Assembly (NCBI RefSeq): GCF_030623445.1
Contig: NZ_CP130613.1
Span: forward strand, 1,364,001 to 1,428,000
Direction of reading: 5' to 3'
Origin: Pseudogemmatithrix spongiicola
Lineage (GTDB): Bacteria; Gemmatimonadota; Gemmatimonadetes; Gemmatimonadales; Gemmatimonadaceae
Length of the DNA: 64,000 nucleotides
The notes below the pieces were generated by a model. That model was not told the DNA's origin. It made no database searches and saw only the letters and a program-made list of their open reading frames with translations. This document shows, in pieces, positions 26,629-44,677 of this stretch. The position numbers were made by a program, and so were the translations under genes. How positions within the stretch are numbered: the first letter of the stretch is position 1; every line of letters starts with the position of its first letter.

Positions 26629-27088
26629 CCTGACGTCGGCGGAGCCCGGTCCGGGGGCGGAGGACGACCCCCGGGATGCGGACCGTTTTCTGGTCGCTGA
26701 AGCCGCCGGGCAGCGGGTGGCGCTGCCCCTGCTGCAGAGTCGCGAAATCTTGACCGTGAAAGCCGTGACCAGACTGCCCGGTGCGCCGTCTTGGATAGCC
26801 GGGCTGGTGAACGTGCGCGGCACGGTGCTGACGGTGGTGGACACCGGCCAGCGGCTGGGCGGTGCGGCGTCCACGGGTCCGGTGGTGATGGTGGAAGTCG
26901 CCGAGCGGAAGTTCGGGCTGCGCGTGGACCGGGTGGACGGCGTGGTGCGTGCCGACGCGGGTCTCGAGGCGGTGGACGAGGCGCGGTCGGCGGGTGGCGC
27001 AGTGTGCGGGCTCGTGACGGCAGGTGACGGGCCGGCGATGGTGCTCGACTTGGAGGCCCTGCAACGCGCGGCGATCGCCGACGCGTGA
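26615..27088 (+). CDS. cheW: CheW-like chemosensory coupling protein 1
   Basis: The 157-residue product begins at the GTG at 26615, inside the end of rluD; a TTG at 26576 is an alternative and neither has a clear ribosome site. The CheW fold is visible in VALPLLQSREILTV, PSWIAGLVNVRGTVLTVVD and KFGLRVDRVDGVVR. It links receptors to CheA. Two further cheW genes close the module, so this one may serve a different receptor or output. Confidence 0.88.
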   Translation: MNLSDLTSAEPGPGAEDDPRDADRFLVAEAAGQRVALPLLQSREILTVKAVTRLPGAPSWIAGLVNVRGTVLTVVDTGQRLGGAASTGPVVMVEVAERKFGLRVDRVDGVVRADAGLEAVDEARSAGGAVCGLVTAGDGPAMVLDLEALQRAAIADA

Positions 27089-27131
27089 GCGCAGGGCCGG
27101 CACGACTCAAGCGGAACGGGGAGGAGGACGC

Positions 27132-27494
27132 GTGGCTCCGACGGTGCTGATCTGCGACGATGCGATCTTCATGCGCACGATGGTGGGTGACATCCTGACG
27201 CAGGCGGGCTTCGAGATCGTCGGCGAGGCCGAGACGGGCACGCAGGCGGTGGAGCGCTACAAGGCGCTGCGGCCCGACCTCGTGACGATGGACATCGTGA
27301 TGCCCGACATGGGCGGCATCGACGCGGTGCGCGAGATCACGAAGTTCGATCCCAACGCGAAGGTGCTGATGTGCAGCGCGATGGGGCAGCAGTCGCTGGT
27401 CGTCGAGGCGATCCAGGCGGGCGCGAAGGACTTCGTGGTGAAGCCCTTCCAGCCGAGCCGCGTGCTGGAGGCGGTGCAGCGGGTCCTGGGCTAA
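27132..27494 (+). CDS. cheY: CheY-type response regulator
   Basis: The 120-residue stand-alone receiver domain has acidic pair D9-D10, phosphoacceptor D54 (TMDIVMPDMGG), Ser82 at the switch position usually held by Thr, and K104 (VVKPF). It starts with GTG after a strong GGGGAGGAGG site, which suggests high expression relative to its neighbours. Without flagellar genes nearby, its partner could be the MglA or DUF4388 proteins rather than a flagellar switch. Confidence 0.94.
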   Translation: MAPTVLICDDAIFMRTMVGDILTQAGFEIVGEAETGTQAVERYKALRPDLVTMDIVMPDMGGIDAVREITKFDPNAKVLMCSAMGQQSLVVEAIQAGAKDFVVKPFQPSRVLEAVQRVLG

Positions 27495-30143: not shown

Positions 30144-32848
30144 ACCGGCTGTCCACCGCCTCGACGTCGGAGCGGGACCGCGAGGTCCTGCGCGGCTTCG
30201 CGCGCCGGATCGACGCGGCGGACGCGGGGGCGCATAACAACCTTGGCGTGCTGTACTACACCAAGGGATTGTTCGAGGAGGCCGTCGACGCCTTCACCAA
30301 GGCGCTGGACATCGACCCGAAGATGCAGGTCGCGCAGCGCAACCTGGAGATCGCGTACTTCAACACCGGCTACTACGACCGTCGTGTCGCGGAGCTGCGG
30401 GAGCGCCTGCGGCACAAGCCCGACGATCGCGATGCGCGGTGGGAGCTGGGCCGCGCGTTCGCGTTGCTGGGCCAACCCGAGGATGCGATTCCGGAGTTCC
30501 AGGCATTGCTTGCCGTGCGGCCGGGCGATGTCGGCGCGATGATCCAGCTCGGGCTCGCCGAGAAGGCCGCGGGCCGCCTCGGCGTGGCGCTGAGCTGGTT
30601 CCGCACGGCACTGGCGCGCGATCCGCAGAGCGGGCTGCTGCACTTCTACGTCGGCGAGGTGCTGTACAACCAAGGCGCCTTCGACGAAGCCCTGGGGTCG
30701 CTGCAGCGGGCCATCCAGCTCAACCCCGATCATCCGGATGCGCACTTCCTGCTCTCGTTCGTGCTGGGCGACATGGGTCGCCACGACGAAGCGCAGAAGG
30801 CCTCGAAGCGCGCGGTGCAGTTGAATCCGGCGCTGTCGCGCGCGCAGGCGAACCTCTCGCTCGACGAGTACGACCCGAAGAAGTACGAGCAGCTCGTCCC
30901 GGGGCGTCAGGCGCGGAAGTCCGAGCAGCAGATGCGCATCGCCGAAGGCGAGCCGCTGGCGCACTACACGCTGGGCAATGCGTTCCGACAGCAGGGCTTG
31001 CTCACCGAGGCGATGCGCGAGTACCAACTGGCGCTGGAGATCGGCGAGGACCGCGCGCTCGTGCTGCAGGCGACCGCCGAACTGCACCTGATCCGCAAGG
31101 ATCCGACGGCGGCGATTCCATTGTTCGACGAGCTGCTCGCGCTGCGGCCGGATTCGCCGAAGCTGTGGAACGAGCGCGGCATCGCGCTGCATCAGACGGG
31201 CGACCACGCCGGTGCGGCGGAGAGCTACCGTCGGGCGCTGCAGCTGGATGCGCAGTACGCGATCGCGCGCAACAACCTCGCGGTGTCGCTGTTCCACGCG
31301 GGTGAGCCCGAGGACGCCGTCGACGAGTTCCGCGAGGCGCTGCGGGCGGCACCGACGTTCACCAAGGCGCGGCTCAACCTCACGTTGCTCCTGGTGCGGG
31401 CCAAGCGCTACCAGCTCGCGCTCGAAGCCTACCGCCAGGTGCTCGAGCACGACGCCGAGGCGGCGGTGGCGTGGAACGGCGTGGGCTTGGTGCTCGCGGA
31501 GCTGCGGCGCTTCGAAGAGGCACGCACGGCCTACGCACGCGCGATCCAGGCGAAGCCCGACTACGCCGAAGCGCACTACAACCTGAGCTTCTCGCTGACG
31601 AACCTCGGCGATTACGCCGGGGCGCTGCGTGAGACCAAGCGCGCGCTGGAGATCGACCCGTACTACACGCCGCAGACCTTCCAGCTGGCCATCGACCTCG
31701 AGTTCGAGGAGGCCGACCTCACCGTCGTGCCGGACCTCGGCGGCGAGAGGCGACTCAGCGGCGGCGTCGAGACGTTCACGTTCGACACGGGCATCCTCGA
31801 CGCGATCTTCAAGCAGTTGGAGCCGGCGACGGCCGAGGCAGCCGCCGAGGCGGCGGCGCCGGACGGCGATCCCTTCGCCCTGGCCGAGGATTACCTCTCG
31901 AAGGGCCTCGTGGACCGCGCGATGGCGGAGATCCGCCGCGCGATGCAGCGCGGGGCCGACGGCGCGCGTGGCAACGTCTTGCTGGGCGAGGCCTTCGGGC
32001 GGCAGGGCGCCTGGGGCGATGCGCTCGAGCGCTTTGAGGCGGCGCGGCATGCGCGGGCGGATTACGCCGAAGCGCTGCGCGGCGAGACGCAGTCCTTGCT
32101 CATGCTCGGGCGCGGGGCCGATGCCGCGGAGCCGGCGGCGGCGTTGCTGCGGCTGCTGCCGGATGACGTGGACGCGCTCTTGCTGATCGCGACCGCCCGC
32201 TTCGAAAGCGGCGATCCCGAAGGGGCGCTGGAGGTCCTGGATCAGGCACGCCGCGCCGACCCCAAGCGCGCCGAGGTGCAGCGGGGCATCGGCAACGTGC
32301 TGCGTGCGATGGGCAACGTGGACGCGGCGATCGCGGCCTACCGGCACGCCTTGGCGATCGACGGCGACTTCGCGGCGGTGCGCTATGACTTGGCGCAGCT
32401 GCTGATCGGGCGCGGCGACTTCCTGGAAGCGGAAGGCGAACTGCTCGCCGCGCTCGAGGCGGTGCCGACGTATGCCGACGCGACGCTGGCGCTGGCCGAC
32501 CTGCACCGGCAGCGCGGCGTGCCCGCGAAGGCGCTGGCGCTGTTGGTGGAGTTCCTCGAGCAGGATCCGTACAGCTTCGACGGCTTGGTCGCGCTGGGTG
32601 AGCTGTTGCTCGAGATGGAGCGGCCCGACGACGCCGCGTTCGCGTTCCAGCGCGTGCTGCGCTTCGACCCCGCGCATGTGGGCGCGGTGTTCCATCAGGG
32701 CGTGCTGCTCTCGTGGCAGGAACGGTATCGCGAGGCGCTGGCCTGCTTCCGGCGCGTGGCCGAGCTCGACCCGCAAGGCGAGTTCGCGCGGCGCGCGTTC
32801 CGCGAGGCGCGGGCCATCTCGCAGCGGCTCGACGGGGAGGACGCCTGA
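30140..32848 (+). CDS. Large TPR-repeat scaffold protein
   Basis: This 902-residue soluble protein without a signal peptide starts at the GTG at 30140 that overlaps the cheC stop. From residue 30 on it is almost wholly 34-residue TPR helices (AHNNLGVLYYTKGLFEEAVDAF; PKLWNERGIALHQTGDHAGA). A linker of about 60 residues near 520-600 (PDLGGERRLSGG) splits two solenoids. It probably scaffolds partners encoded nearby. The specific partner is not evident. Confidence 0.85.
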   Translation: MNRLSTASTSERDREVLRGFARRIDAADAGAHNNLGVLYYTKGLFEEAVDAFTKALDIDPKMQVAQRNLEIAYFNTGYYDRRVAELRERLRHKPDDRDARWELGRAFALLGQPEDAIPEFQALLAVRPGDVGAMIQLGLAEKAAGRLGVALSWFRTALARDPQSGLLHFYVGEVLYNQGAFDEALGSLQRAIQLNPDHPDAHFLLSFVLGDMGRHDEAQKASKRAVQLNPALSRAQANLSLDEYDPKKYEQLVPGRQARKSEQQMRIAEGEPLAHYTLGNAFRQQGLLTEAMREYQLALEIGEDRALVLQATAELHLIRKDPTAAIPLFDELLALRPDSPKLWNERGIALHQTGDHAGAAESYRRALQLDAQYAIARNNLAVSLFHAGEPEDAVDEFREALRAAPTFTKARLNLTLLLVRAKRYQLALEAYRQVLEHDAEAAVAWNGVGLVLAELRRFEEARTAYARAIQAKPDYAEAHYNLSFSLTNLGDYAGALRETKRALEIDPYYTPQTFQLAIDLEFEEADLTVVPDLGGERRLSGGVETFTFDTGILDAIFKQLEPATAEAAAEAAAPDGDPFALAEDYLSKGLVDRAMAEIRRAMQRGADGARGNVLLGEAFGRQGAWGDALERFEAARHARADYAEALRGETQSLLMLGRGADAAEPAAALLRLLPDDVDALLLIATARFESGDPEGALEVLDQARRADPKRAEVQRGIGNVLRAMGNVDAAIAAYRHALAIDGDFAAVRYDLAQLLIGRGDFLEAEGELLAALEAVPTYADATLALADLHRQRGVPAKALALLVEFLEQDPYSFDGLVALGELLLEMERPDDAAFAFQRVLRFDPAHVGAVFHQGVLLSWQERYREALACFRRVAELDPQGEFARRAFREARAISQRLDGEDA

Positions 32849-33828
32849 TGGCAATCGAAGGCCCGCTCCGCGAACTCGGCATCCACGACGTCTTCCAGCT
32901 CCTCGACCTGAGCCGGAAGACCGGCACGCTCACCGTGACCTCGCAGCTGCGCGACAACGAGGGCGTGGTGCTGTTCGAGAACGGCAAGGTGATCTCGGCG
33001 AGCATCAAGTCGAATCCGCATCGCATCGGCGACCTGCTGGTGCGGTCCGGGCGTCTCACGGACGCGGACCTCGCGATGGTGCGCGAGGCGCAGGCCAAGG
33101 GCGACCGGCGGCGCTTCGGGGAGATCCTCGTGGGGCTCGGGCTGGTGACGTCGCGCGAGATGGAGCGGCAGATGCGGCTGCAGATCGAGGCCGTGGTGTT
33201 CGAGCTGATGTCGTGGTCGGAGGGGCACTTCCGCTTCACCGAAGGCATGAGCGAGGACGCGCTGCGCGATGCCTCGGCGCCGCTCGGGACGGAGTCGCTG
33301 CTGATGGAGGGCGCGCGCCGCATCGACGAGTGGTCGCGTATCGCGGACCGCGTTCCGAACCTGTCGGTGATCCCGGACCTCGCGCCCGGCGACGCGGATC
33401 ACCCGGCGCTGCTCGACCTGCTGCCGCAGGAGTGGAAGGTGCTGGCGATGATCGACGGCCAGACGGACCTGCGCAGCATCGCGGCCACGCTGTCGATGAG
33501 CGAGTTCGACGTGGCGCGCATCGTCTACGGCATGGTGAGCACCGGCGTCGTGCTGCTGCGGCAGCCGACGCGCGCGTCGGTGCCGGTCGCATTGCCCAGC
33601 GAGCCGCGGAAGTCGGTGCACCAGACGCCGATGGGGACGCCGCCGAGCGCGCTGCGGCGCGGGGCGGAGTTCTTCCGTGCGGGCAGGCTCGAGGACGGCA
33701 TCGCGACGTGGAGCGCATTCGTCGAGAGCACGCCGAAGTATCCGGCGGCGTCGGCGCTGCGCGAGGCTGTGGTCGGCGCCACGAAGTTGGTGGAAGTGCT
33801 CGAGCGGGAGGTGCCGCGTGAGCGCTGA
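32848..33828 (+). CDS. DUF4388 (PATAN-type) protein with paired MshEN-like motifs
   Basis: The 326-residue cytoplasmic product has a DUF4388 domain at 1-110 (GIHDVFQLLDLSRKTGTLTV, then VLFENGKVISA). Overlapping its end are two 24-residue units, 59-82 and 89-112, of the form RxGxxLVxxGxLT...Q, separated by 6 residues. This resembles the c-di-GMP-binding MshEN repeat. A winged-helix-like part (ALLDLLPQEWKVLAMIDGQTD) and a short TPR-like tail follow. DUF4388/PATAN domains occur in motility regulators. The ATG shares a base with the preceding stop. Confidence 0.82.
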   Translation: MAIEGPLRELGIHDVFQLLDLSRKTGTLTVTSQLRDNEGVVLFENGKVISASIKSNPHRIGDLLVRSGRLTDADLAMVREAQAKGDRRRFGEILVGLGLVTSREMERQMRLQIEAVVFELMSWSEGHFRFTEGMSEDALRDASAPLGTESLLMEGARRIDEWSRIADRVPNLSVIPDLAPGDADHPALLDLLPQEWKVLAMIDGQTDLRSIAATLSMSEFDVARIVYGMVSTGVVLLRQPTRASVPVALPSEPRKSVHQTPMGTPPSALRRGAEFFRAGRLEDGIATWSAFVESTPKYPAASALREAVVGATKLVEVLEREVPRER

Positions 33829-34624
33829 CATCCGGGCGATGAGCGAGCAGCTGGCGGCGGATCCGTCGAGCCTGATCTTCCTGCCGCTGGCCGAGCAGCT
33901 GTTGGCGCGCGGCGACATGGCGCATGCCTCGCGCGTGGCGCGGAAGGGCGCCGAGCGGCATGCGCATCGCGCCGACGTGCACGATCTCGTCGCGCGGATC
34001 GCGCTGGCGCAGGGCGACGAGACGACGGCGGAGCGCGCGTGGCGGCAGTCGTTGGCGATCGCGCCGGAGTTCGGGGCCGCGCATCGCGGCTTGGGTTTCC
34101 TCTGCTACCGGCAGGGACGCTGGAGCGAGGCGGAGACGCACCTCGCGACGGCGCGGGCGGCGACGCCGGGCGATCCGGCGCTCGAGGCGGCCTGGGAGGC
34201 GCTGCACGCGGCACGCGCCGAGGCGGAGTCGACGCCGCCGGCCGCGGCGCTGCACGCCCACGCGCCGGGGCAGATCTTCGACGCGGTGCTGGGCGAGAGC
34301 GGCCAAGTCTCGCTGCTGCTCGATCGCGACGGCTTGGTCGTGGCGGGGCAGTACCTGACGGCGGAGGGCGAGGACCTCGGGGCACTGATCGGCGCGCACC
34401 TGAGCGGCGTCGGCGACGAAGCCACGCGCGCCATGCGGCACTTCGGGCTCGGCGCGTGGACGCGCATCGCGCTCGAGACCGAGGCCGCGACGGTCGTGAT
34501 GGCGCCGACCGGCGATGGCGTCACGCTGGTCGCCGCGCCGCGTGAGGTGCCGCTGGGATTGGTGCGCCGCACACTCGACCAGTGCGCGGCATTGGCGCGG
34601 CAGTGGCTGGGGCTCGGCGCATGA
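33818..34624 (+). CDS. TPR protein with C-terminal roadblock/LC7 domain
   Basis: The 268-residue product has TPR helices in residues 10-135 (AHRGLGFLCYRQGRWSEAETH). Residues 148-265 form a roadblock/LC7 domain (VSLLLDRDGLVVAG, EATRAMRHFGLGAWTRIALE), the fold of the MglA GTPase-activating partner MglB. It is the first of three consecutive roadblock genes upstream of mglA. The GTG start overlaps the DUF4388 gene by 11 nt. Confidence 0.8.
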   Translation: MSADIRAMSEQLAADPSSLIFLPLAEQLLARGDMAHASRVARKGAERHAHRADVHDLVARIALAQGDETTAERAWRQSLAIAPEFGAAHRGLGFLCYRQGRWSEAETHLATARAATPGDPALEAAWEALHAARAEAESTPPAAALHAHAPGQIFDAVLGESGQVSLLLDRDGLVVAGQYLTAEGEDLGALIGAHLSGVGDEATRAMRHFGLGAWTRIALETEAATVVMAPTGDGVTLVAAPREVPLGLVRRTLDQCAALARQWLGLGA

Positions 34625-34962
34625 GCGCCTTCGCAGCGGCCCTCGCGGCGGTCACGCGCCATCGCGGCGTGATGGCCTGTCTCGTCGTCGCCGAAGAGGA
34701 CGGGATCGTGATCGACGGCACCGCGCAGGTGGGCGTGGACACGGCGGCCTTCGCGGCGCTGACGGCCTCGCTGTACCGCAAGGCGGCGCGGGCCGCGTCG
34801 AGCGCGGGGTTCGGCGCGACCGGGTTCTGCGAGCTGGAAGCGGAGCGCGGGCGCGTGCTGGCGGCCGGCCGCGACGGCATCGTGCTGGTCGCGGTGGCCG
34901 AGTCGCGGGCGAACCTCGGCTTGCTGCGCGTCGAGATGCTCAAGGCCGCGGGGGCGCTGTGA
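34621..34962 (+). CDS. Small roadblock/LC7 domain protein
   Basis: This 113-residue single roadblock-like domain reads MACLVVAEEDGIVIDG for strand, loop and strand, then the helix FAALTASLYRKAARAA and VLAAGRDGIVLVAVAES. Its length is that of MglB-type proteins without the C-terminal extension. ATGA and GTGA overlaps join it to both neighbours, so the three roadblock proteins should be made in similar amounts. Confidence 0.72.
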   Translation: MSAFAAALAAVTRHRGVMACLVVAEEDGIVIDGTAQVGVDTAAFAALTASLYRKAARAASSAGFGATGFCELEAERGRVLAAGRDGIVLVAVAESRANLGLLRVEMLKAAGAL

Positions 34963-35432
34963 TCCGCCATTCCGTGACCATCGGTTGGGCCGACGCGCCG
35001 CTCAAGCGCTTCGTGGACGATGCGCGCCTCGAGCTCGCCGTGCTGATGCATACCAGCGGGCAGGTCTTGGCGCAGGTGGGGTTCCAGCGCAGCATCGACG
35101 TGCAGACGGCCTGTGCGCTGTCGGCGGCCATCAACGCCTCGGCCGAGCATCTCGGCGGGATGGTGGACGGCAAACCGTTCACCGGCCTCCACTATGCCGG
35201 CAAGGCGCGGCAGATTTATCTCGGGCAGGTGCCGACGAAGGACGGCCGCCTGCTGGTGCTCGCCGTGTTCGATTCGGAGAGCTCGCTGGGCATCGTGCAG
35301 CTCTACCTGAAGGAGTTCTACGCGAACGTCGCGGCGGCGGTGCCGGTCGCGGAGGACCTGTCGCCGGCGCTGGCCGAGAACTTCGAGGCGGACCTCAACC
35401 GCAACCTCGCGCAGCTCTTCGGGAGGGGCTGA
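34959..35432 (+). CDS. Roadblock/LC7 domain protein, MglB-like
   Basis: The 157-residue product has a roadblock-like core (LELAVLMHTSGQVLAQVG, CALSAAINASAEHLGGMV, LGQVPTKDGRLLVLAVF) and a C-terminal helical extension (LAENFEADLNRNLAQLFG). It lies 34 nt upstream of mglA, the place held by mglB in Myxococcus and Thermus, so it is the best MglB candidate of the three. Confidence 0.72.
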   Translation: MIRHSVTIGWADAPLKRFVDDARLELAVLMHTSGQVLAQVGFQRSIDVQTACALSAAINASAEHLGGMVDGKPFTGLHYAGKARQIYLGQVPTKDGRLLVLAVFDSESSLGIVQLYLKEFYANVAAAVPVAEDLSPALAENFEADLNRNLAQLFGRG

Positions 35433-35466: not shown

Positions 35467-36066
35467 TTGAGCCTCGTCAACTACGCCACGCGCGAGATCA
35501 CCTGCAAGATCGTCTACTACGGCCCGGGTCGGTCCGGGAAGACGACGAACCTGCATTACATCCACGGACAGGTGCCGACGGACCGGAAGGGCCAGATGGT
35601 GTCGCTGGCCACGCAGACGGACCGCACGCTGTTCTTCGATTTCCTGCCGATCGACCTCGGGACGATCTCCGGGTTCACGACGCGCTTCCAGCTCTACACG
35701 GTGCCGGGCCAGGTGTACTACCAGACGACGCGCAAGCTCGTCCTGCAGGGCGCCGACGGCGTGGTGTTCGTCGCCGACTCGCAGGCGCGCCAGCTGCAGG
35801 AGAACATCGAGAGCTTCCAGGACCTGCACGAGAACCTCGCGGAGCAGGGCGTGGACGCGCGCACGATGCCGATGGTGATCCAGTACAACAAGATCGACCT
35901 GCCCGACGAGCTGCGCACGCCGGTGCCGGAACTCGAAGAGCAGATCAACTTCCGCAACATCCCGTCCTTCACGGCCGATGCGCTGCACGGCCCGGGCGTG
36001 TTCGAGACGCTGCGCGGCATCTCGGAGCAGGTGCTGCGCAAGCTGAGCGCGGGGCGGAGCGGCTAG
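35467..36066 (+). CDS. mglA: MglA polarity GTPase
   Basis: The 199-residue Ras-like GTPase begins MSLVNYATREITCKIVYYGP, the usual MglA N-terminus, from a TTG at 35467. G1 is GPGRSGKT at 19-26. The intrinsic arginine finger R53 lies in TQTDRTLFFDF. G3 is the MglA-type TVPGQ at 78-82 with Q82, and G4 is NKID at 141-144. In Myxococcus MglA-GTP marks the leading pole and drives gliding and type IV pilus activity. Here it lies inside a chemosensory operon, directly before the tandem DnaA-type gene. Confidence 0.95.
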   Translation: MSLVNYATREITCKIVYYGPGRSGKTTNLHYIHGQVPTDRKGQMVSLATQTDRTLFFDFLPIDLGTISGFTTRFQLYTVPGQVYYQTTRKLVLQGADGVVFVADSQARQLQENIESFQDLHENLAEQGVDARTMPMVIQYNKIDLPDELRTPVPELEEQINFRNIPSFTADALHGPGVFETLRGISEQVLRKLSAGRSG

Positions 36067-36067
36067 C

Positions 36068-37963
36068 ATGCGGCTCGATCCCCGGTTCACCTTCGATCGC
36101 CTGGTCGTCGGCGCGGCGAATCGCCTCGCGGCGGCGGCGGCGCGCGCCGTCGCCGAGGCGCCGGGGACGACGTACAACCCGCTGTTCATCTACGGTGGCT
36201 CGGGGCTCGGCAAGACGCACCTCCTGACCGCGACGGCCCATCTGCTGCAGCAGCTGCAGCCGCGGGCCGAGGTGCTGGCGTTGACGCTCGACGAGTTCAG
36301 CGAGCAGTACCACGCCGCGGTCAGCGCGGGCGAGACGTCGGCCTTCGGGCATCGGTTGGCGCACGTGGACCTGCTGCTGCTGGACGACCTGCAGTTCGTG
36401 ACGGGCCGCCGCGAGATGCAAGCCGAGCTCCTGCGCCTGTTCACCGTGATGCAGGACGGCAACCGGCAGATCGTCTGCGCCTGCGACCGTCCGCCGTCGG
36501 AGATCGCCGATGTGGACGAGCGGTTGATCTCGCGTCTGGCCGGCGGGCTGGTGGTGGACGTCGGCTTGCCGGAGTTCGAGGCGCGCGTGGCGATCCTGCG
36601 CGCGGCGATCGCCGAGCGTGAGCTCGCGGTGCCGGATGCGGCGATCACGCGGCTCGCGGAGCGCGGCATCAGCAGCGTGCGCGAGTTGCAGGGACTGCTC
36701 AACCAGTGGATCGCGCAGGAGGCGATGGGCGGGAAACGCATGCCGACGCCCATGCCCGGCAACGTAGATGCGCTGCGGCCGAGCGGCGAGTTCCTCTCGT
36801 TCCTGTCGGACGTGGCCGCGGTGGTGCAGGAGCAGGTGGAGACCTGGCAGGTGCGCCTGCGCGAGACGATCGCGTACTGGAAGGGCGAGGGCTATCGCAC
36901 CGCGGTGCTCGAGCGCGCCCTCACGCTGCCCACGGAACCGGACGTGCAGGGCTTGATCGCGGTGTATGTGCAGGCGGTGGACCACCTGCGCTCGCTGGAG
37001 CGCGAGGCGACGGCGGTGGACGGAGCGCTCGGCGGGCACGAGTTGTTCCGCGATCCGGAACGCCTCGCCGAAGCCGAGGAGTTCGTCGAGAAGGCGCTCG
37101 CCGGCGAGATGCCGCCGGGGGGCCCGAACCCCGCGTTCACGCGCGAGGGCTTCGACGTGGGGGCGGCGAACCAGCTGGCGGTGCACGCGGCCGATGCGGT
37201 CATCGCCACGCCGGGCACGCGCTACAACCCGCTGCTGATCACGGGGCCGAGCGGCGTGGGCAAGACGCACCTGGTGCATGCGATCGGCAACGCAATTGCC
37301 GCGCGCAGCGAGGGCAGGGTCGCCGTGGCCTGCGTGCATGCGCAGGCGTTGGTGGACGAACTCATCGCCGCCATCCAGCAGGGCACGGTGGAGCGCTGGC
37401 GTTCGCGCTACCGCGCCGCCGGGGCGCTGGTGATCGACGACATCCAATTCCTCGCCGGCAAGGAGCGCACGCAGGACGAGTTCTTCTTCGTCTTCAACGC
37501 GCTCATCGAGGAGGGCAAGCAGATCATCCTCTCGAGCGACCGGGCGCCGGGCGAGATCCCCGACCTCGCGGCGCGGCTGCGTTCGCGCTTCGAAGGCGGG
37601 TTGATCGCCGAGATCCAGCCGCCGGACCGTCCGCTGCGCGAGAAGCTGGCGGCGCGCTTCCTCGCCGGCTTGGGCCGCGCCGCCCCGCCGGACCTGCTGG
37701 ACGTGATCTGCGACCCGACGGTGCGCAGCGTGCGCGAGTTGATCGGCGTGGTGAACCGGTTGGCGGCCGCGGCGGATGCCTTGGGCCAGCCGCTCGACGC
37801 CGTGCTGGCGCGGCAGGAGCTCGGGCTCGGTGCGGCGGCGAGTGCGACGATCGCGCCGCCAGCCGCCGCGGCCAGTGCCGGCGACCGCACCTTCCTCGAC
37901 CGCGAGCGCGTGGTCTGGGAATGGGCGGACTTGAGTGGTCGCGTCATCGAGGAGCTGCGCTAA
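36068..37963 (+). CDS. Tandem DnaA-type AAA+ ATPase (two domains, no DNA-binding domain)
   Basis: The 631-residue product contains two complete DnaA domain III-like AAA+ modules. Module 1 (about 5-220) has Walker A GGSGLGKT 43-50, Walker B LLLLDD 102-107, sensor 1 CDRPPSE 139-145 and sensor 2 SVRELQG 203-209. Module 2 (about 358-580) has GPSGVGKT 393-400, LVIDD 454-458, SDRAPGE 490-496, the arginine-finger box RLRSRFEGG 503-511 and SVRELIG 554-560. A helical linker of about 130 residues joins them. DnaA domain IV, which reads the DnaA box, is absent. It lies one base after mglA and abuts the next gene. Confidence 0.88.
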   Translation: MRLDPRFTFDRLVVGAANRLAAAAARAVAEAPGTTYNPLFIYGGSGLGKTHLLTATAHLLQQLQPRAEVLALTLDEFSEQYHAAVSAGETSAFGHRLAHVDLLLLDDLQFVTGRREMQAELLRLFTVMQDGNRQIVCACDRPPSEIADVDERLISRLAGGLVVDVGLPEFEARVAILRAAIAERELAVPDAAITRLAERGISSVRELQGLLNQWIAQEAMGGKRMPTPMPGNVDALRPSGEFLSFLSDVAAVVQEQVETWQVRLRETIAYWKGEGYRTAVLERALTLPTEPDVQGLIAVYVQAVDHLRSLEREATAVDGALGGHELFRDPERLAEAEEFVEKALAGEMPPGGPNPAFTREGFDVGAANQLAVHAADAVIATPGTRYNPLLITGPSGVGKTHLVHAIGNAIAARSEGRVAVACVHAQALVDELIAAIQQGTVERWRSRYRAAGALVIDDIQFLAGKERTQDEFFFVFNALIEEGKQIILSSDRAPGEIPDLAARLRSRFEGGLIAEIQPPDRPLREKLAARFLAGLGRAAPPDLLDVICDPTVRSVRELIGVVNRLAAAADALGQPLDAVLARQELGLGAAASATIAPPAAAASAGDRTFLDRERVVWEWADLSGRVIEELR

Positions 37964-39580
37964 ATGGCCATCAAGGGCTCCCTCAAGGAAGCGTCGCTGC
38001 CGGACGTGCTGCAGCTGCTGGCGATGGGCAAGAAGACGGGCTGCCTCTCGGTGACGCATCGCTCGAACTTCGGGTCGATCTACTTCGACAAGGGCAAGAT
38101 CAGCTACGCGAGCATCGTGAACCGTCGCGACCGCCTGGGGGACATCCTCGTGAAGGGCGGCGTGCTCTCGCAGGAGCATCTCGACGAGGCGATCGGGTTG
38201 CAGGCGAAGGCGCGCGGCCAGCGCCTCGGCGACCTGCTGGTCAGCCATGGGATGATCACGCGCGAGCAGCTGCACGCGCAGATCCGCATCCAGATCGAGG
38301 AGGCGGTGTACTTCCTCTTCACGTGGGCGGAGGGGACGTTCAACTTCGAGGCCGAGATCCGGCCCGACGAGCAGGACTTCCTCGTCTCGATCAATCCCGA
38401 GTCGTTGCTGCTCGAGGGCGCGCGGCGCGTGGACGAGTGGTCGCTGATCGAGAAGAAGATCCCGTCGTTCGACGTCGTGTTCGAGGCCGACCGTCGGCGC
38501 CTCGCGGAGAGCCAGCCGCAGCTGACGCACGAGCAGCAGGTGCTGCTGCCGTTGATCGACGGGCGGACCGATGTGGCGGGTCTGGTGGACGCGAGCGGTC
38601 TGGTGGAGTTCGAGGTGGGCAAGGCGCTGTTCGGCCTCGCCACGGCGGGCTTCCTCCACCGCGTGGGTCGCTCGAAGGCGCCGGACGACGTGGCGATCGA
38701 CGTGAAGGTCGAGGAGCATCGCAACCTCGGCGTCGCGTTCTTCCGCGCGGGCATGCTGGACGAAGCGGTGCGCGAGTTCCGCCGCGTGACGGAGCTGCGC
38801 CCGGAGGATGTGGGCGCGCGCTTCCAGCTGGGCGTGGCGCACCTGCGGCTCGGCAAGTGGGCCGAGGCGATGACGCACCTCGAGGCGGCGGCGCGGCAGC
38901 GTGGTGCCAAGGCCTCGGTGTTCCACAACCTGGCGCTGGCGCTCGAGCGCCTGGGGCGCGAGGACGACGCGGTGGCGGCGCTGGAGAGCGCGCTGGAACG
39001 GGGCGGGGAATCCGAGCCCCGCGTGCACCTCTCGCTTGGCGTGCTCGCGCTGCGGCGCGGCGACTTTGCGGAGGCGGATGCGCACTTCATGCGCGCGCGG
39101 CCGCTGTACGGCAACCGTCCGCCGGCGGCGGTGTGGTTCCACAGCAGCTCCCTGGCCGCCGCGCTCGCCGGCCAGCTGGAGAAGACGGTCGCGCTGCTGC
39201 AGGAAGGCACCGAGGCGCATCCGCATGCCGCGGCCCTGCACAACAACCTCGCGGTCGCATTGATGGCGCTCGGGCGTTCCGACGACGCGTTGCGCGCCGT
39301 GCAGCGGGGCTTGCAGGAGGATCCCGGCCTCGCGCCGCTGCACCGCAATCTCGGCGACTTGCAGCTCGCGCAGGGCGATCGTCGCGCCGCGATGGACGCC
39401 TATGCGTTGGCGGTGCGGCACCACGAGACGCTGGGGCCGGAGGTGTGGGCGCGGCTCGGCGCCTTGCGCGCCGAGGCGGGCGACGCCGACGGAGCGCGCA
39501 CGGCGCTCGAGCAGGCCTTGGTGCTGGATCCCCAGCACGAGACCGCCCGGACGCAGTTGCACGCGCTGGCCGGGGGATGA
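37964..39580 (+). CDS. DUF4388-TPR protein with paired MshEN-like motifs
   Basis: The 538-residue product has an N-terminal DUF4388 domain (LPDVLQLLAMGKKTGCLSV, IYFDKGKISYASI). Two units at 57-80 and 87-110 fit RLGDxLVxxGxxxxxxLxxxIxxQ with a 6-residue spacer, closely like the c-di-GMP-binding MshEN repeat. Residues 175-245 form a winged-helix-like segment, and from 250 to the end there are about eight TPRs. It is paralogous to the N-terminal part of the 32848-33828 product. It begins the base after the DnaA-type gene and overlaps cheR. Confidence 0.82.
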   Translation: MAIKGSLKEASLPDVLQLLAMGKKTGCLSVTHRSNFGSIYFDKGKISYASIVNRRDRLGDILVKGGVLSQEHLDEAIGLQAKARGQRLGDLLVSHGMITREQLHAQIRIQIEEAVYFLFTWAEGTFNFEAEIRPDEQDFLVSINPESLLLEGARRVDEWSLIEKKIPSFDVVFEADRRRLAESQPQLTHEQQVLLPLIDGRTDVAGLVDASGLVEFEVGKALFGLATAGFLHRVGRSKAPDDVAIDVKVEEHRNLGVAFFRAGMLDEAVREFRRVTELRPEDVGARFQLGVAHLRLGKWAEAMTHLEAAARQRGAKASVFHNLALALERLGREDDAVAALESALERGGESEPRVHLSLGVLALRRGDFAEADAHFMRARPLYGNRPPAAVWFHSSSLAAALAGQLEKTVALLQEGTEAHPHAAALHNNLAVALMALGRSDDALRAVQRGLQEDPGLAPLHRNLGDLQLAQGDRRAAMDAYALAVRHHETLGPEVWARLGALRAEAGDADGARTALEQALVLDPQHETARTQLHALAGG

Positions 39581-40404
39581 GCATGGCGGCCGGCGAGGAC
39601 GAGGCCGCCTTCAAGGCGTTGCTGGAGCAAGTGGCGCGCGAACGCGGGTTCGCCTGCGCCAACTACAAGGACGGCTGTCTGCGGCGCCGGGTCGCGGTGC
39701 GCATGCGGGCGCGCGGCAGTGAAAGCTTTGCCGCGTACGCGGCCTTGCTGCGGCGCGAGCCCGACGAGTACGAACGGCTGATGGACACGTTGACCATCAA
39801 CGTGACGCGGCTCTACCGCGATGCGGATGTCTGGGACGCCGTGGCGGATGCCGTGCTGCCCGCGCTTTGGCAGGCGAACCCGGAGGGCCTCGGCGTGTGG
39901 AGCGCCGGCTGTGCGTCGGGCGAAGAGCTCTTCACGCTGGCGGCGTTGTTGCATCGGCACGCCGAGCGCACGGCCACGCTGCCGCGCCTGCGCGACACGC
40001 AGGTGCTGGGCAGTGACATCGACGCCGCCTCGCTGCAGGCGGCGCGTACCGGCCGGTTTGCCGAGGCGGCCTTCAAGGAGATGCCGGCCGCGCTGCGCGA
40101 CCGATACTTCGTGGGCACGGGGACGCGGACGGCGGTCGCGGAACTGCAGGCGCTGGTGCGCGTCGAGCGGCGCGACCTCTTGATGGATCCGCCGCCCCCG
40201 ATGGTGTTCGACTTGATTGCCTGCCGCAACATGCTGATCTACATCGACCGCGAGGGACAGGAGCGGATCTTCCGGCGTTTCCACGCGGCGTTGGCGCCGC
40301 ACGGCATCCTGGTCCTGGGCAAGGTCGAGACGATGCTGGGGCCGGCGCGTTCGCTCTTCGCGCCGGTGCATCCGCGGCAGCGCATCTTCCGGAAGGTGGC
40401 GTGA
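39577..40404 (+). CDS. cheR: Chemoreceptor methyltransferase CheR
   Basis: The 275-residue product has the N-terminal helical CheR domain (CRRRVAVRM-type stretch, here CLRRRVAVRMRARG) and the SAM-binding domain with VWSAGCASGEE, LGSDIDAASL, and FDLIACRNMLIYID near the end. It methylates glutamates on receptors. No receptor gene lies in this window, so its substrate must be encoded elsewhere. The ATG overlaps the preceding stop. Confidence 0.94.
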   Translation: MSMAAGEDEAAFKALLEQVARERGFACANYKDGCLRRRVAVRMRARGSESFAAYAALLRREPDEYERLMDTLTINVTRLYRDADVWDAVADAVLPALWQANPEGLGVWSAGCASGEELFTLAALLHRHAERTATLPRLRDTQVLGSDIDAASLQAARTGRFAEAAFKEMPAALRDRYFVGTGTRTAVAELQALVRVERRDLLMDPPPPMVFDLIACRNMLIYIDREGQERIFRRFHAALAPHGILVLGKVETMLGPARSLFAPVHPRQRIFRKVA

Positions 40405-40880
40405 GCGTCCAGCACGTGCGCATCGCGCACCTCGCGGTGGCGACGGGGCAGGGACGCCTCGTCGCGGTCGGGCTGGGCTCGTGTGTGGTCGTCACGCTGT
40501 ACGATCGCGCGCGGCGCATCGGCGGCATGGCGCACATCCTGTTGCCGGATCCGCAGCTCGCGCGCGATGGCTCGAATCCCGCGCGCTTCGCGACGACGGC
40601 GGTACCGCTGCTGCGCGACGCCGTGGTGGCGGCCGGCGCGCGCGGACCGTTCGAGGCCAAGCTGGTGGGCGGCGCCGCGCTCTTCGGATCGCTGCTCGGC
40701 AGCGGCGGGCAGCAGATGGGTGAGCGCAACATCGCGGCGGCGCGGCGGGCGCTGGTGGCGCTGGGCATTCCGATCGCGGCGAGCGAGACGGGCGGCGCGA
40801 GCGGGCGCACGGCGGAGTTCGAGGTGGCGACGGGTGCGCTCGAGGTGCGCAGCGTGCGCGGAGGCAGCCGTGTCCTCTGA
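40401..40880 (+). CDS. cheD: Chemoreceptor glutamine deamidase CheD
   Basis: The 159-residue product carries the CheD catalytic set: C28 in GLGSCVVVTLYD and H45 in GGMAHILLPD, with a downstream Thr. CheD deamidates receptor glutamines and is sequestered by CheC, which is encoded upstream. The GTG overlaps cheR and the end overlaps cheB by 11 nt. Confidence 0.94.
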   Translation: MSVQHVRIAHLAVATGQGRLVAVGLGSCVVVTLYDRARRIGGMAHILLPDPQLARDGSNPARFATTAVPLLRDAVVAAGARGPFEAKLVGGAALFGSLLGSGGQQMGERNIAAARRALVALGIPIAASETGGASGRTAEFEVATGALEVRSVRGGSRVL

Positions 40881-41934
40881 CCGTCGCGTGCTGGTGGTCG
40901 ATGACTCGGCCCTGCTCGGCGCGGTGGTCGCGGGGCTCATCGAGGGATTCGGTGGCTTCAAGGTGGTCGGCACGGCGCGCGACGGCGTGGAAGCGCTGCG
41001 ACTGGTGCACGCGCTGGATCCCGACATCGTGACGCTGGACATCGAGATGCCGGGCGTGGATGGCCTGCATGCGCTGGGCTACATCATGAGCGAATGCCCG
41101 CGGCCGGTCGTGATGGTGAGCGGTGCGACGCGCCGCGGAGCCGTGGACCTGACGATTCGCGCCTTCGAGCTCGGCGCGGTGGAGTTCGTGCGCAAGCCCG
41201 ACGAGCGCTCCCACGACGGCTGGGTGAGCGTGGCGCCGCGGCTGCGCGATGCCCTGCGCGCCGCGTCGAGCGCGAACATGGGATTGCCGCTCCTGGTGCG
41301 CCCGCGCGTGCCCGGGGTGAAGGCGCCGCGTCGCTTGCACGCGGCGACGGAAGTCGTGGTGATCGCGGCGAGCACCGGCGGGCCGCGTGCGCTTGCGGAG
41401 TTGGTGCCGGGGCTGGATCCCGCGCTCGACGCGGCGGTGGTGATCGCGCAGCACATGCCGGCGGGCTTCACCGCGGGGCTGGCCCGCCGACTCGATCAAC
41501 TTTCGCCGCTGCCGGTGCGGGAAGCGCAGTCGGGCGAGCCGCTGTTGGCGGGCACGGTGTACGTCGCGCCGGGCGGACGGCACTTGGTGCTGGAGCGCGA
41601 GGAGGGCGGCGCGCGGCTGTCGTTGCGCGACGAGCCAGCCGAACACGGCGTGCGACCGGCCGCGGATCCGTTGTTCCGCTCGGCGGCGGCCGTGTTCGGT
41701 CCGCGCGCACTCGGCGTGGTGCTCACGGGCATGGGGCGCGACGGCAGCGAGGGCCTGCAAGCGATCGTCCGGGCGGGCGGGCGCGGGCTCGTGCAGGATC
41801 GGGCCACGAGCGCGGTCTACGGCATGCCGGCGCAGGCGAAGGCGACGGTGCCCGCGGACGCCGAGCTGCCGTTGGGCGCCATGGCGGCGGCGATCGGCCG
41901 CCTGGTGCATGAGATACGGGGGACCCGCGCGTGA
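40870..41934 (+). CDS. cheB: Chemoreceptor methylesterase CheB
   Basis: The 354-residue product combines a receiver domain (D11-D12, phosphoacceptor D57 in TLDIEMPGVDG) with a methylesterase domain whose catalytic triad is S168 (AASTGGPRAL), H195 (AQHMPAGFT) and D291 (GMGRDGSEG). It reverses CheR methylation when phosphorylated by CheA. The GTG start is inside cheD. Confidence 0.95.
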   Translation: MSSDRRVLVVDDSALLGAVVAGLIEGFGGFKVVGTARDGVEALRLVHALDPDIVTLDIEMPGVDGLHALGYIMSECPRPVVMVSGATRRGAVDLTIRAFELGAVEFVRKPDERSHDGWVSVAPRLRDALRAASSANMGLPLLVRPRVPGVKAPRRLHAATEVVVIAASTGGPRALAELVPGLDPALDAAVVIAQHMPAGFTAGLARRLDQLSPLPVREAQSGEPLLAGTVYVAPGGRHLVLEREEGGARLSLRDEPAEHGVRPAADPLFRSAAAVFGPRALGVVLTGMGRDGSEGLQAIVRAGGRGLVQDRATSAVYGMPAQAKATVPADAELPLGAMAAAIGRLVHEIRGTRA

Positions 41935-42383
41935 CGGCGCTCGGCCGCGTCTTGCTCGTGCGCGTCGGGGCGGAGCGCGTGGCGCTGCCGCTGGGCGCCG
42001 TACGCGAGTTGGTGGATGCCCCGACGCTGCTGCCCGTGCCGATGGCGCCGGCAGCGGTGCGGGGGCAGCTCGCCTTGCGTGGGCAGCACATCCCCGTGCT
42101 TGCGCTGGACGCGTTGCTGGAGATCCCGCCGGCGACCGCCGCGCCCAGCACATCCTGTGTGGTGCTGGTGATGGCCGAGGAGGGGTACGCCGTGGCGGTG
42201 GACGACGTCATCGACGTGCTCGAGCCCGGCGACCGCAGCCGCCGACCGGTGCCGGCGGGCGCAGACCGACAGGGGACGATCGGCGCGCTGCTGCACTTGG
42301 GCATCGAGCTCGCCGCGTTGGTGGATGAGACCGCGCTCTCACGCGTGGCGGTCGCTACTTTACGGGCAGAATCCCCCGTATGA
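41931..42383 (+). CDS. cheW: CheW-like coupling protein 2
   Basis: The 150-residue product has the CheW beta-barrel pattern: VLLVRVGAERVALPLGAVRELV, a VRGQLALRGQHIPVLALD core strand and YAVAVDDVIDVLEP. It overlaps both cheB and the next cheW by 4 nt. It is clearly diverged from the other two CheW proteins in the window. Confidence 0.85.
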   Translation: MTALGRVLLVRVGAERVALPLGAVRELVDAPTLLPVPMAPAAVRGQLALRGQHIPVLALDALLEIPPATAAPSTSCVVLVMAEEGYAVAVDDVIDVLEPGDRSRRPVPAGADRQGTIGALLHLGIELAALVDETALSRVAVATLRAESPV

Positions 42384-42868
42384 CTTCATCCGCCGCCCCC
42401 CGTCGATCGCTGGTCACCTGCCGCGCTGCCGGCGAGCTGCTCGCGCTCGACGTGGGCAGCGTGGAGCGCGTGCTGCGCTACACCGTGCCGCGGACCCTGC
42501 CAAACACCGCCGCGTGGATGCGCGGCGTGATTGCGGTGGGCGAGCAGCTGGTGACCGTGCTCGACCTGCGGGAGCGGCTGGGGCTGTCGGCGGCGGCTGC
42601 GCATGAGGGCAGCCGCATCGTGGTGCTGGCGTTGTCGGGCGGGCGCATCGGCTTCGTCGTCGACGCGGTCGACGACGTCGTGGCGGTCGATCCCGCGATG
42701 ATCGAAGCGGCGCCGCCGGTGTACCGCGGACTGGCCCGGGCCTTCGTGCAGGGCATCCTGCGGCGCGATGAGCGGCTCTATCTCGTGCTCGACGCGGACC
42801 ACCTCGTGACATCACAGGAGCGGCTGGCGCTGGGCGCCGCCGTGGAGGAACTGCAGCATGGCCGATGA
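42380..42868 (+). CDS. cheW: CheW-like coupling protein 3
   Basis: The 162-residue product reads LLALDVGSVERVLRYT, AWMRGVIAVGEQLVTVLDLRE and RIGFVVDAVDDVVAVDP, typical CheW strands. It ends in YLVLDADHLVT. Together with the preceding gene it forms a tandem pair, which could be two arms of one array or two specialised couplers. Confidence 0.86.
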   Translation: MTSSAAPRRSLVTCRAAGELLALDVGSVERVLRYTVPRTLPNTAAWMRGVIAVGEQLVTVLDLRERLGLSAAAAHEGSRIVVLALSGGRIGFVVDAVDDVVAVDPAMIEAAPPVYRGLARAFVQGILRRDERLYLVLDADHLVTSQERLALGAAVEELQHGR

Positions 42869-43718
42869 GACGCCGGCGTCCTTCCGCGCGCAGTACGCCA
42901 CGATCGATGCCAAGCTCGACGCCGGCGTCGCCGGCGCCGACCGCGCGCAGGTGAAGGCCGAGATCGTCGGCCTCTTCAAGACGCTCGAGGCGCAGATCGC
43001 CGAGCTGTCGCAGCTCAAGGACGACATCAAGCTCCTCGTGGACAAGTGGAAGGCGCAGCAGGCCGCAACTGGTGTGCAGGCGCCGGAGTTCCAAGGCGAG
43101 AAGCCGGTCGTGCACGCCGACCACATCGGCGCGAGCACCTTCATCGAGAAGGGCTGGAGCCGCCTCTCGCTCGGGGACTACGAAGGCGCGGAGAAGGCGC
43201 TGCTCAAGGCCATCGAGCTCTCGCCGGGCGATCCGCAGAGCGAGGCGCTGCTCGGCTGGGCGCAGATGCTGCAGGAGAAGTACGACGACGCGCTGATGAA
43301 CTTCCAGAAGGTGCTCATGCGCGAGCCGGCGAACGCGCTGGCGCGCATCAACGTCGGCTACATCTGCCTCAAGAAGCAGATCTTCGGCGAGGCGATCGAG
43401 CATCTCTCGAAGGCGATCCGCCTCGATAACGACCGCAAGGCGACGCTCTACGCGCACTTCTACCTCGGGCTCGTGTACCTCGAGCGCGAGATGTACGAGG
43501 ACGCCCAGACGTTCTTCCAGAAGACGCTGAACCTCGGGCCGAACCTGATCGAGGCGTATTACGAGCTCGGGCGCGCGTTCTGGTTCAATGAAGAGCGCGA
43601 GGAGGCCCGCGCGACCTGGGCGAAGGGTCACGCGACGAACAAGTTCAATCCCTGGGGCAAGAAGTGCGCGGAGACGCTCGCGCTGGTCGATAGCGGCGGC
43701 GAGCTGACGCGCGGGTGA
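42858..43718 (+). CDS. TPR protein with N-terminal coiled coil
   Basis: The 286-residue cytoplasmic product has residues 10-70 predicted as coiled coil (EIVGLFKTLEAQIAELSQLK). Residues 90-280 hold four or five TPRs (ARINVGYICLKKQIFGEA; TLYAHFYLGLVYLEREM). It overlaps the third cheW by 11 nt and so belongs to the chemosensory module, probably as an adaptor. No specific family is recognised. Confidence 0.8.
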   Translation: MADETPASFRAQYATIDAKLDAGVAGADRAQVKAEIVGLFKTLEAQIAELSQLKDDIKLLVDKWKAQQAATGVQAPEFQGEKPVVHADHIGASTFIEKGWSRLSLGDYEGAEKALLKAIELSPGDPQSEALLGWAQMLQEKYDDALMNFQKVLMREPANALARINVGYICLKKQIFGEAIEHLSKAIRLDNDRKATLYAHFYLGLVYLEREMYEDAQTFFQKTLNLGPNLIEAYYELGRAFWFNEEREEARATWAKGHATNKFNPWGKKCAETLALVDSGGELTRG

Positions 43719-44677
43719 TGATCGCCGCGTTCCTCGCCGCGGCGCTGCTCGGCGGGGCGGCGCAGGACACACTGCCAGCCGACGCGGCCGTGCTCGTATC
43801 GGGCCGCTTCAGCGTGGTGCACTTCGCGCGGGACGCGAGGCTGGCGCAGAGTTACCTCGACGCCGCCCGGAGCCGCGATACGTTCCCAGGCCTGCCCCGT
43901 CCGACCGCGCCGGTGGTGATCCTCGTGGCGCCCGACGCCGAGACGTTCCGGGCCTGGGTCGGGTCCGGCGCACCGGAGTGGGGGGCCGCCATCGCGTTTC
44001 CGGCGTTGCAGCGCATCGTGATGCAGGGCCGCTACGGCGCCGCTGCGGATGGCGATCCGCTCGTGACCCTGCGGCACGAACTGGCCCACCTCGCCCTGCA
44101 CGAAGCCCTAGGCCCGTCGCCACCGCGGTGGTTCGACGAGGGGTACGCCTCGTACGCCGCGGGAGAGTGGGGGCGGGACGAAGTGTTGGTCACGAGTTTC
44201 GGCCTAGTCTGGCGCGGGATTCCGACCCTGGCCGGTCTGGATTCCGGATTCTACGAAGGGGCGGAGCGTGCCCAGCGATCGTACGCGCTGGCCCACCGGG
44301 CTGTCGCGGAACTGGCGGCCTTGGATCCCGCCCGGGGGCTGGGGCTGCTGTTCGGACACTGGGAACGCGCGGGCACGTTCGAGCGCGCGCTGCGGCGGGC
44401 GCACGGCATGAGTTCCGCCGATTTCGAGCAGTATTGGAAGCGTCGCGTTCGGCGACAGTTCGGCGTGCTCGCGCTCGCGGCGGACCTCACCGTCCTGACC
44501 CTCGTCCTGACGGTCTTGCTGGGGCCCATGTGGTGGCAGCGGCGCCAGAAACTGCGGCGGCGGCTCGAACAGATGCGCGAGGACGACCGGCGCCGGGACG
44601 AAGCGGAGCGGGCCAGCGCCCTCGCGGCCCTCTTGGGGGAGTCCGAGGGGGAAAATGACGGCCGGATTAAGGGTTAA
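43715..44677 (+). CDS. Membrane-bound gluzincin peptidase (peptidase MA-like)
   Basis: The 320-residue product begins with GTG-ATG at 43715 and a short signal-like hydrophobic start (MMIAAFLAAALLGGAAQ). A zinc-protease motif HELAHLALHE is followed 14-15 residues later by DEGYASY, whose Glu suits the third ligand; this is the gluzincin peptidase MA pattern. A C-terminal membrane helix (TVLTLVLTVLLGPMWW) is followed by a basic, charged cytoplasmic tail. It overlaps the TPR gene by 4 nt and ends the co-directional run. Substrate unknown. Confidence 0.78.
   Translation: MMIAAFLAAALLGGAAQDTLPADAAVLVSGRFSVVHFARDARLAQSYLDAARSRDTFPGLPRPTAPVVILVAPDAETFRAWVGSGAPEWGAAIAFPALQRIVMQGRYGAAADGDPLVTLRHELAHLALHEALGPSPPRWFDEGYASYAAGEWGRDEVLVTSFGLVWRGIPTLAGLDSGFYEGAERAQRSYALAHRAVAELAALDPARGLGLLFGHWERAGTFERALRRAHGMSSADFEQYWKRRVRRQFGVLALAADLTVLTLVLTVLLGPMWWQRRQKLRRRLEQMREDDRRRDEAERASALAALLGESEGENDGRIKG

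Follow-up and report, generated by a model that had tools for sequence, protein, structure and literature searches.

A tandem DnaA-type AAA+ protein encoded beside mglA in Gemmatimonadota, a candidate component of a surface motility pathway

Known members of the DnaA family act as initiators of DNA replication, as inactivators of these initiators, or as loaders of helicases or transposases, and we know of no job for the family in steering surface movement. The work of DnaA on DNA requires a hydrophobic residue of the initiator-specific motif (ISM) as well as an arginine finger (PMC8287927). In Myxococcus, MglA-GTP places PilB via the TPR protein SgmX, and direct links between MglA and the pilus motor are still missing (PMC7519303, PMC11580455). 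In Synechocystis, PATAN proteins bind PilB (PMC9090330, PMC10519157).

The window (the whole stretch of 64,000 nucleotides that was analysed) contains an ATG-to-TAA open reading frame (36068-37963, +) for a tandem DnaA-type AAA+ protein of 631 aa, here named DnaA2. The phylum in which it is found, the Gemmatimonadota, consists of soil- and water-dwelling bacteria. Below, we compare the protein and its gene neighborhood with the described systems, and weigh the roles that it may have.

Gene cluster and protein anatomy

The genes of the cluster and the parts of DnaA2 are located as follows.

27024..27494, +, CheY-like receiver-domain protein (start approximate)
27532..29520, +, CheA, the sole PF02895 match in the genome
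29517..30143, +, CheC/CheX-type phosphatase (domain match)
30167..32848, +, large TPR protein, 893 aa (domain match)
32848..33828, +, DUF4388 (PATAN) protein (start assumed at an internal ATG, MAIEGPL...)
33821..34624, +, TPR + roadblock protein (domain match)
34624..34962, +, roadblock/LC7 protein (domain match, synteny)
34959..35432, +, roadblock protein (weak match to the MglB model NF052242, 22 bits, below the cut-off)
35467..36066, +, MglA-type Ras-like GTPase (begins with TTG; its stop lies 1 bp upstream of DnaA2)
36071..36733, +, DnaA2 module 1, AAA+ core and lid (residues 2-222)
36779..37123, +, DnaA2 helical linker (residues ~238-352, about 115-130 residues)
37124..37831, +, DnaA2 module 2, AAA+ core and lid (residues 353-588)
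37901..37960, +, DnaA2 C-terminal tail RERVVWEWADLSGRVIEELR (residues 612-631)
37964..39580, +, DUF4388 (PATAN)-TPR protein (ATG at the base directly after the DnaA2 stop)
39577..40404, +, CheR (synteny and sequence)
40401..40880, +, CheD (synteny and sequence)
40870..41934, +, CheB, receiver and methylesterase (start approximate)
41931..42383, +, CheW (domain match)
42380..42868, +, CheW (domain match)
42858..43718, +, TPR-like protein (synteny; repeat type read from the sequence)
43715..44677, +, Peptidase_MA_2 protein, last gene of the conserved block

With 1 bp between mglA and the DnaA2 gene, and the ATG of the PATAN-TPR gene abutting the DnaA2 stop, the gene spacing is that of an operon. 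The MglA/chemosensory operon proposed in a first-pass annotation is found as described, with mglA immediately upstream and che genes around, and this setting is kept across the phylum. Scanning of two linker patterns over 84,980 species genomes yielded 76 loci; the patterns were taken from a closer subset, as the fuller linker alignment was too diverse, and two peptide patterns cannot exclude distant relatives. The loci are titled Gemmatimonadetes, Gemmatimonadota, Gemmatimonadales, Gemmatimonadaceae, Gemmatimonas or Longimicrobium, except for one 'bacterium' and one Planctomycetota. On the latter contig (L090) the cluster is 77-90% identical to that of the window, and it is probably a mis-binned or mislabelled gemmatimonad contig.

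Throughout the 76 loci, followed as far as the contigs reach and with single genes undetected here and there, a one-strand order recurs: CheA, CheC, TPR, PATAN, TPR-roadblock, roadblock, roadblock, MglA and DnaA2, followed by PATAN-TPR, CheR, CheD, CheB, CheW, CheW, TPR and peptidase. MglA directly precedes DnaA2 in 65 of the 67 testable loci, and in the two exceptions, which missed the distance cut, it is present upstream. The PATAN-TPR gene directly follows DnaA2 wherever this could be tested (69/69), and CheA lies within 9.5 kb of DnaA2 in 44/44 testable loci. The PATAN region of the PATAN-TPR protein matched the MshE-type c-di-GMP motif NF053729 (50 bits, cut-off 38), hinting at c-di-GMP sensing or at a PilB-like N-domain ancestry of this protein.

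DnaA2 is composed of module 1, a low-confidence stretch, the helical linker, module 2, a flexible stretch and a conserved C-terminal tail. Two matches to PF00308 (Bac_DnaA, the bacterial DnaA ATPase domain; Pfam, whole-protein E 9.6e-103), together with Walker A, Walker B, sensor 1, box VII and sensor 2 in DnaA order in both halves, bear out the earlier description of two DnaA-type AAA+ domains in one protein. Module 1 has Walker A at residues 43-51, Walker B at 102-107, the arginine finger at R156 (36533-36535) and sensor 2 at R205; module 2 has Walker A at 393-401, Walker B at 453-458, KERTQ at 465-469, the arginine finger at R507 (37586-37588) and sensor 2 at R556. The arginine finger had been thought to differ between the halves, on the basis of ISRLAGG in one and RLRSRFEGG in the other, but these stretches had been compared out of register: DERLISRLAGGL of module 1 aligns residue for residue with AARLRSRFEGGL of module 2, and both contain the finger arginine (R156, R507).

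The linker, first estimated at about 130 residues, carries the motif W..(x)W.GEGYRT..LE and gave no Pfam match above the cut-off. Modelled alone it is helical, as had been proposed (pLDDT 87), and comparison of this model with the PDB yielded no clear fold match (Foldseek E 5 and Z 3.8 at best). Residues 223-244 form the low-confidence stretch of the AlphaFold2 model, and about 25 low-confidence, flexible residues (about 592-616) lie between module 2 and the short tail. No further copies of the tail motif were found among the ORFs of the window. The full model has a mean pLDDT of 89 and a pTM of 0.54, indicating that the domains are well modelled but not reliably placed relative to each other. 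As the first-pass annotation had it, the DNA-binding domain IV is missing from DnaA2, for there is neither a match to it nor any sequence left to hold one, and module 1 runs into the linker. Chance or a frameshift artefact as the source of DnaA2 is ruled out by its conservation in 95 orthologues.

Relationship to DnaA and conservation of the two modules

Each half scores well with PF00308 (174.8 and 173.7 bits, cut-off 23). Of the NCBIfam models, the DnaA model TIGR00362 gave 473 bits (cut-off 343.9), which is reached only by summing the two halves, so that automatic pipelines may label DnaA2 a second replication initiator dnaA. The models for Hda (TIGR03420, 148.4 bits summed over the two halves, cut-off 194.8), IstB (NF038214, 95.6 bits, cut-off 200) and DnaC (NF005931, 24.6 bits, cut-off 357) all stayed below their cut-offs. 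Among relatives of solved structure in the PDB, DnaA comes first by sequence (E 1e-55 to 1e-37), followed by Hda and IstB (E about 1e-6). The predicted folds give the same order: module 1 is closest to domain III of Bacillus subtilis DnaA (8bv3, Z 30.6, 1.7 A over 224) and module 2 to Aquifex aeolicus DnaA (1l8q, Z 29.0, 1.5 A over 214), with Hda at Z 21.1 and IstB at Z 19.1. Checked against the DnaA, Hda and DnaC families, both halves fit DnaA best, no other AAA+ clade being better, and by sequence and predicted fold both belong to DnaA.

Nevertheless, DnaA2 is not the replication initiator of this genome (3.26 Mb, one contig, 100% complete). It has no domain IV, ISM residues have been lost from module 1, and a separate dnaA is located at position 355 (G000:C1:355), consistent with the non-replicative setting assumed earlier.

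Residue conservation was counted in 95 orthologues, 90 of them with module 2, which were picked for relatedness, and percentages describe this sample alone. In module 1, the Walker A Lys and the Walker B Asp are invariant (95/95 each), and the arginine finger and the sensor 2 Arg are present in 87/95 and 88/95. For module 2 the corresponding counts are 82/90 (Walker A Lys), 83/90 (first Walker B Asp), 88/90 (arginine finger) and 73/90 (sensor 2 Arg), and all copies without the Walker A Lys, which are P-loop-dead, keep the finger (8/8). Outside the modules, W619 of the tail and G275 of the linker are found in 95/95 and P330 of the linker in 94/95. Several lineages have lost the lid and sensor 2 from module 2, and the entire module is missing from four Longimicrobium-type proteins and from that of genome G125, all of which keep linker and tail. 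In the G125 protein (L129), a Val/Pro-rich repeat stretch takes the place of module 2 ahead of the conserved tail. At six loci (L119, L120, L125, L128, L131, L132) module 2 is a pseudo-AAA+ domain without Walker A/B in which the RLRSRFEGG-type arginine-finger box is intact. Judged from these alignments, the constant core of the protein is module 1, linker and tail, with a module 2 that is variable and retains its arginine finger. The earlier proposal of an active/regulatory pair of halves thus stands in part: module 2 is ATPase-dead or lost in some lineages and the finger is kept, but the reason given, a difference in the finger, was wrong.

The residues through which DnaA acts on DNA are distributed unequally. 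In module 1 the hydrophobic ISM position is His in 66/95 orthologues, and the KERTQ/ISM Arg position is Glu in 83/95 and R in 5/95; by these residues, module 1 has lost the ssDNA-binding signature of DnaA. Module 2 has I/V at the hydrophobic ISM position in 82/90 and the KERTQ-type Arg in 82/90, and this Arg is kept even by P-loop-dead copies. The dnaA of the window genome itself (L001) reads GKNSTQ, and in DnaA of the phylum GKNSTQ or a similar sequence stands in place of the GKERTQ common to many DnaA proteins. As the phylum's own DnaA lacks the KERTQ Arg, its presence in module 2 is no safe marker of DNA binding.

In an unrooted tree of 63 domains, from which long outgroups were left out, module 1, module 2 and DnaA of the phylum each form one group (support 100/100, 100/100 and 100/99), and the two modules together are set apart from DnaA (99/81). 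The tree fits one internal duplication behind both modules, as the first-pass annotation had supposed. A topology test rejected the placement of module 2 with gemmatimonad DnaA (p 0.035) but not that of module 1 (p 0.11). Module 1 of the Longimicrobium-type proteins groups with module 1 of the two-module lineages (98/88), which suggests that the single-module form arose by loss of module 2 and not by primitive absence.

Distribution, co-occurrence with MglA and natural losses

Using a match stronger than 1e-100, a cut chosen to separate it from dnaA alone, DnaA2 was called in 167/295 Gemmatimonadota genomes (all at least 90% complete). A search of plasmids gave no record with a place covering 80% of DnaA2, and the annotated features among the matches listed were all dnaA. 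MglA is present in 167/167 carriers of DnaA2 versus 63/128 non-carriers (Fisher p 1e-29, on raw counts that ignore shared ancestry). This co-occurrence, together with the linkage in 65/67 loci, makes DnaA2 a candidate for the Mgl polarity pathway.

Proximity to mglA and che genes in relatives holds generally, but not in family f5, where the gene lies beside PATAN-TPR, away from mglA and che, in genomes that still have MglA. In this family MglA occurs in 30/30 carriers versus 13/49 non-carriers (p 1e-11, shared ancestry ignored). In the f5 loci read, DnaA2 and PATAN-TPR are together and the rest of the cluster and che genes are absent around them. In two of these (L125, L132) the near-side genes match those beyond the cluster of the window (alanine-racemase-like, IleRS and pseudouridine synthase, with DivIVA in L132), and in L132 the peptidase gene follows. 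MglA of the f5 genome G242 is located in a dnaX-ybaB-recR locus beside a short ORF, a possible MglB, and six f5 genomes have no other cluster gene near MglA. A second MglA paralogue occurs at L152:9190-9768 and G000:C1:1008362-1008838, and the MglA of f5 genomes is probably this paralogue.

Genome G031 (5 contigs, 99% complete) is entirely without CheW and receptors; its cluster has no CheR, CheD or CheB and a CheA ORF without the CheW domain, and its DnaA2, MglA, roadblock, TPR and PATAN genes are intact. Genome G039 resembles it, with one CheW-like match and one receptor fragment left. At both loci (L113 in G031, L114 in G039) chemotaxis genes are gone or broken and CheA is cut short or gone, with the MglA/PATAN part intact, and these lineages appear to be losing the chemotaxis genes from the cluster. 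Since both keep DnaA2 without a receptor array, array positioning is not its essential job. Conversely, G020 keeps MglA, PATAN-TPR and the CheA, CheR and CheB of the cluster and has no DnaA2, its MglA and PATAN-TPR genes being 246 bp apart. In G019 and G259, DnaA2 has outlasted the cluster's MglA and MglB, which are lost. From these losses, neither DnaA2 nor the cluster MglA set strictly needs the other.

As for the type of motility, no flagellin was found in the window genome. In most relatives that do have flagellin, a second CheA lies close to it, so that the CheA of the cluster belongs to a separate system. PilT-family genes are present in 41/41 relatives and in 13/13 DnaA2 carriers of a second set, and four genomes without the PilT family are also without DnaA2; being nearly universal in the phylum, PilT discriminates weakly, and the link to pili is by association. 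By analogy with Myxococcus and Synechocystis, we infer that the cluster may steer type IV pili.

Proposed role and comparison with known systems

The explanation we favor, with a probability of roughly 0.45, is that DnaA2 is a DnaA-derived, non-replicative ATP switch or scaffold of an MglA/roadblock/PATAN-TPR pathway for surface motility (most likely by type IV pili) in Gemmatimonadota. This figure covers the whole account and mainly the assignment to the pathway, which comes from genomics, the mechanism coming from inference. Module 1 would bind and hydrolyse ATP, and module 2 would mainly lend its arginine finger, in cis or from a neighbor, so that a short oligomer like that of DnaA could assemble in an ATP-dependent manner. 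The W..W tail at the C-terminus may provide a docking site for a partner, the likeliest being MglA or the PATAN-TPR protein co-translated with DnaA2. Depending on its ATP state, the oligomer could then gather or release an MglA/PATAN-TPR complex whose target is PilB, the pilus extension motor. In its most far-reaching form, which we offer tentatively and consider doubtful, a bacterial polarity pathway of the Ras-like type would have taken over a replication-initiator motor as its ATP-driven assembly switch, with an active module and a finger-donating, often ATPase-dead partner forming a DnaA-type filament or ring on proteins and not on DNA.

The closest rival to this explanation is that DnaA2 is an AAA+ remodeller or loader, like DnaC or the clamp loaders, acting on PilB or an MglA-effector complex and not as a static scaffold. 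Most of the evidence is common to both and the sequence data do not separate them: there are loaders and remodellers in the AAA+ superfamily, module 1 always retains its ATP site, and the motor and TPR partners are plausible clients. However, no pore-loop or client-binding feature was identified in DnaA2, and the loss of the module 2 lid and sensor 2 in several lineages does not favor remodelling, which we regard as rather unlikely. That DnaA2 positions or counts the chemoreceptor array (the CheA/CheW/receptor cluster), as ParA-like proteins do elsewhere, would explain the constant proximity of CheA and the flanking CheR, CheD, CheB and CheW genes. The first-pass annotation had considered such an array-positioning ATPase, an idea weakened by the persistence of the gene where CheW and receptors are gone: G031 and the similar G039 keep it with the MglA, roadblock and PATAN genes, the f5 genes have no che genes around them, and the G020 cluster has CheA, CheR and CheB but no DnaA2. 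We consider this role improbable.

A coupling of polarity or motility to the state of the chromosome or of replication, via binding to DNA or DnaA, was likewise raised at first. In sequence and fold, each module is a DnaA domain III, and module 2 mostly keeps the KERTQ-type R and I/V at the ISM position. Yet the protein has no DNA-reading domain IV, and the required module 1 is without the ssDNA-binding signature, with Glu in place of the ISM Arg and a hydrophobic position that is mostly occupied by His. The Arg of module 2 carries little weight when the phylum's DnaA lacks it and P-loop-dead copies keep it, leaving this coupling about as improbable as a role at the array. An Hda-like negative regulator of DnaA that is merely co-expressed with motility genes would, like DnaA2, be DnaA-related and without domain IV, but the Hda model is not reached (148 vs 195 bits), the fold is further away (Z 21 vs 30 for DnaA), and DnaA2 is absent from nearly half of the genomes sampled, which must all replicate, while no carrier is without MglA. 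We deem this the least credible of the alternatives, with hardly any probability.

In the open-licence literature searched, we found no description of DnaA with MglA, of tandem DnaA or of DnaA-like paralogues of the DnaA2 type, nor an already characterised family with this architecture, although a description we have not seen is possible. By this literature, the tandem architecture and the motility setting are new; the domains themselves are known. If the favored explanation is true, it means that the assembly mechanism of DnaA can be put to a new use, as a switch for cell polarity that is based on proteins, and it adds an ATPase layer to the problem of pilus motor recruitment by MglA-type GTPases. 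Since nature supplies forms with one module, with two modules and with an ATPase-dead module, the mechanism of DnaA2 is open to testing.

Compared with domain III of DnaA from B. subtilis (8bv3/8btg), A. aeolicus (1l8q/2hcb/3r8f) and Thermotoga maritima (2z4r), each half is alike in core, lid, box VII arginine finger and sensor 2 (Z about 28-31, 34-40% identity). In contrast to DnaA, DnaA2 has two copies per chain, is without domains I, II and IV, has a new linker and tail, has lost the ssDNA signature from module 1, and is encoded in a motility operon. Hda and the DnaC/DnaI/IstB loaders are, like DnaA2, DnaA-related AAA+ proteins without domain IV, but their sequence and fold scores are lower, and to our knowledge no tandem AAA+, linker or W..W tail has been described for them. 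With the control of PilB by MglA-SgmX/FrzS/SopA in Myxococcus, the window genome shares an MglA-family GTPase, an MglB-type roadblock protein and type IV pili (PMC7519303, PMC11580455); similar by domain type are also the large TPR protein and the PATAN proteins alongside a chemosensory system. The papers on this pathway, as searched, name no DnaA-type AAA+ protein, whereas the window has DnaA2 (PMC7519303, PMC11580455). With PixG, PixE and TaxP, which act on PilB1 of Synechocystis, the window shares PATAN (DUF4388) and a chemotaxis-like steering of type IV pili (PMC9090330, PMC10519157), the latter by the analogy drawn above. In Synechocystis, PATAN is fused to a CheY-like receiver, whereas in the window it is fused to TPRs or stands alone, next to a DnaA-type ATPase.
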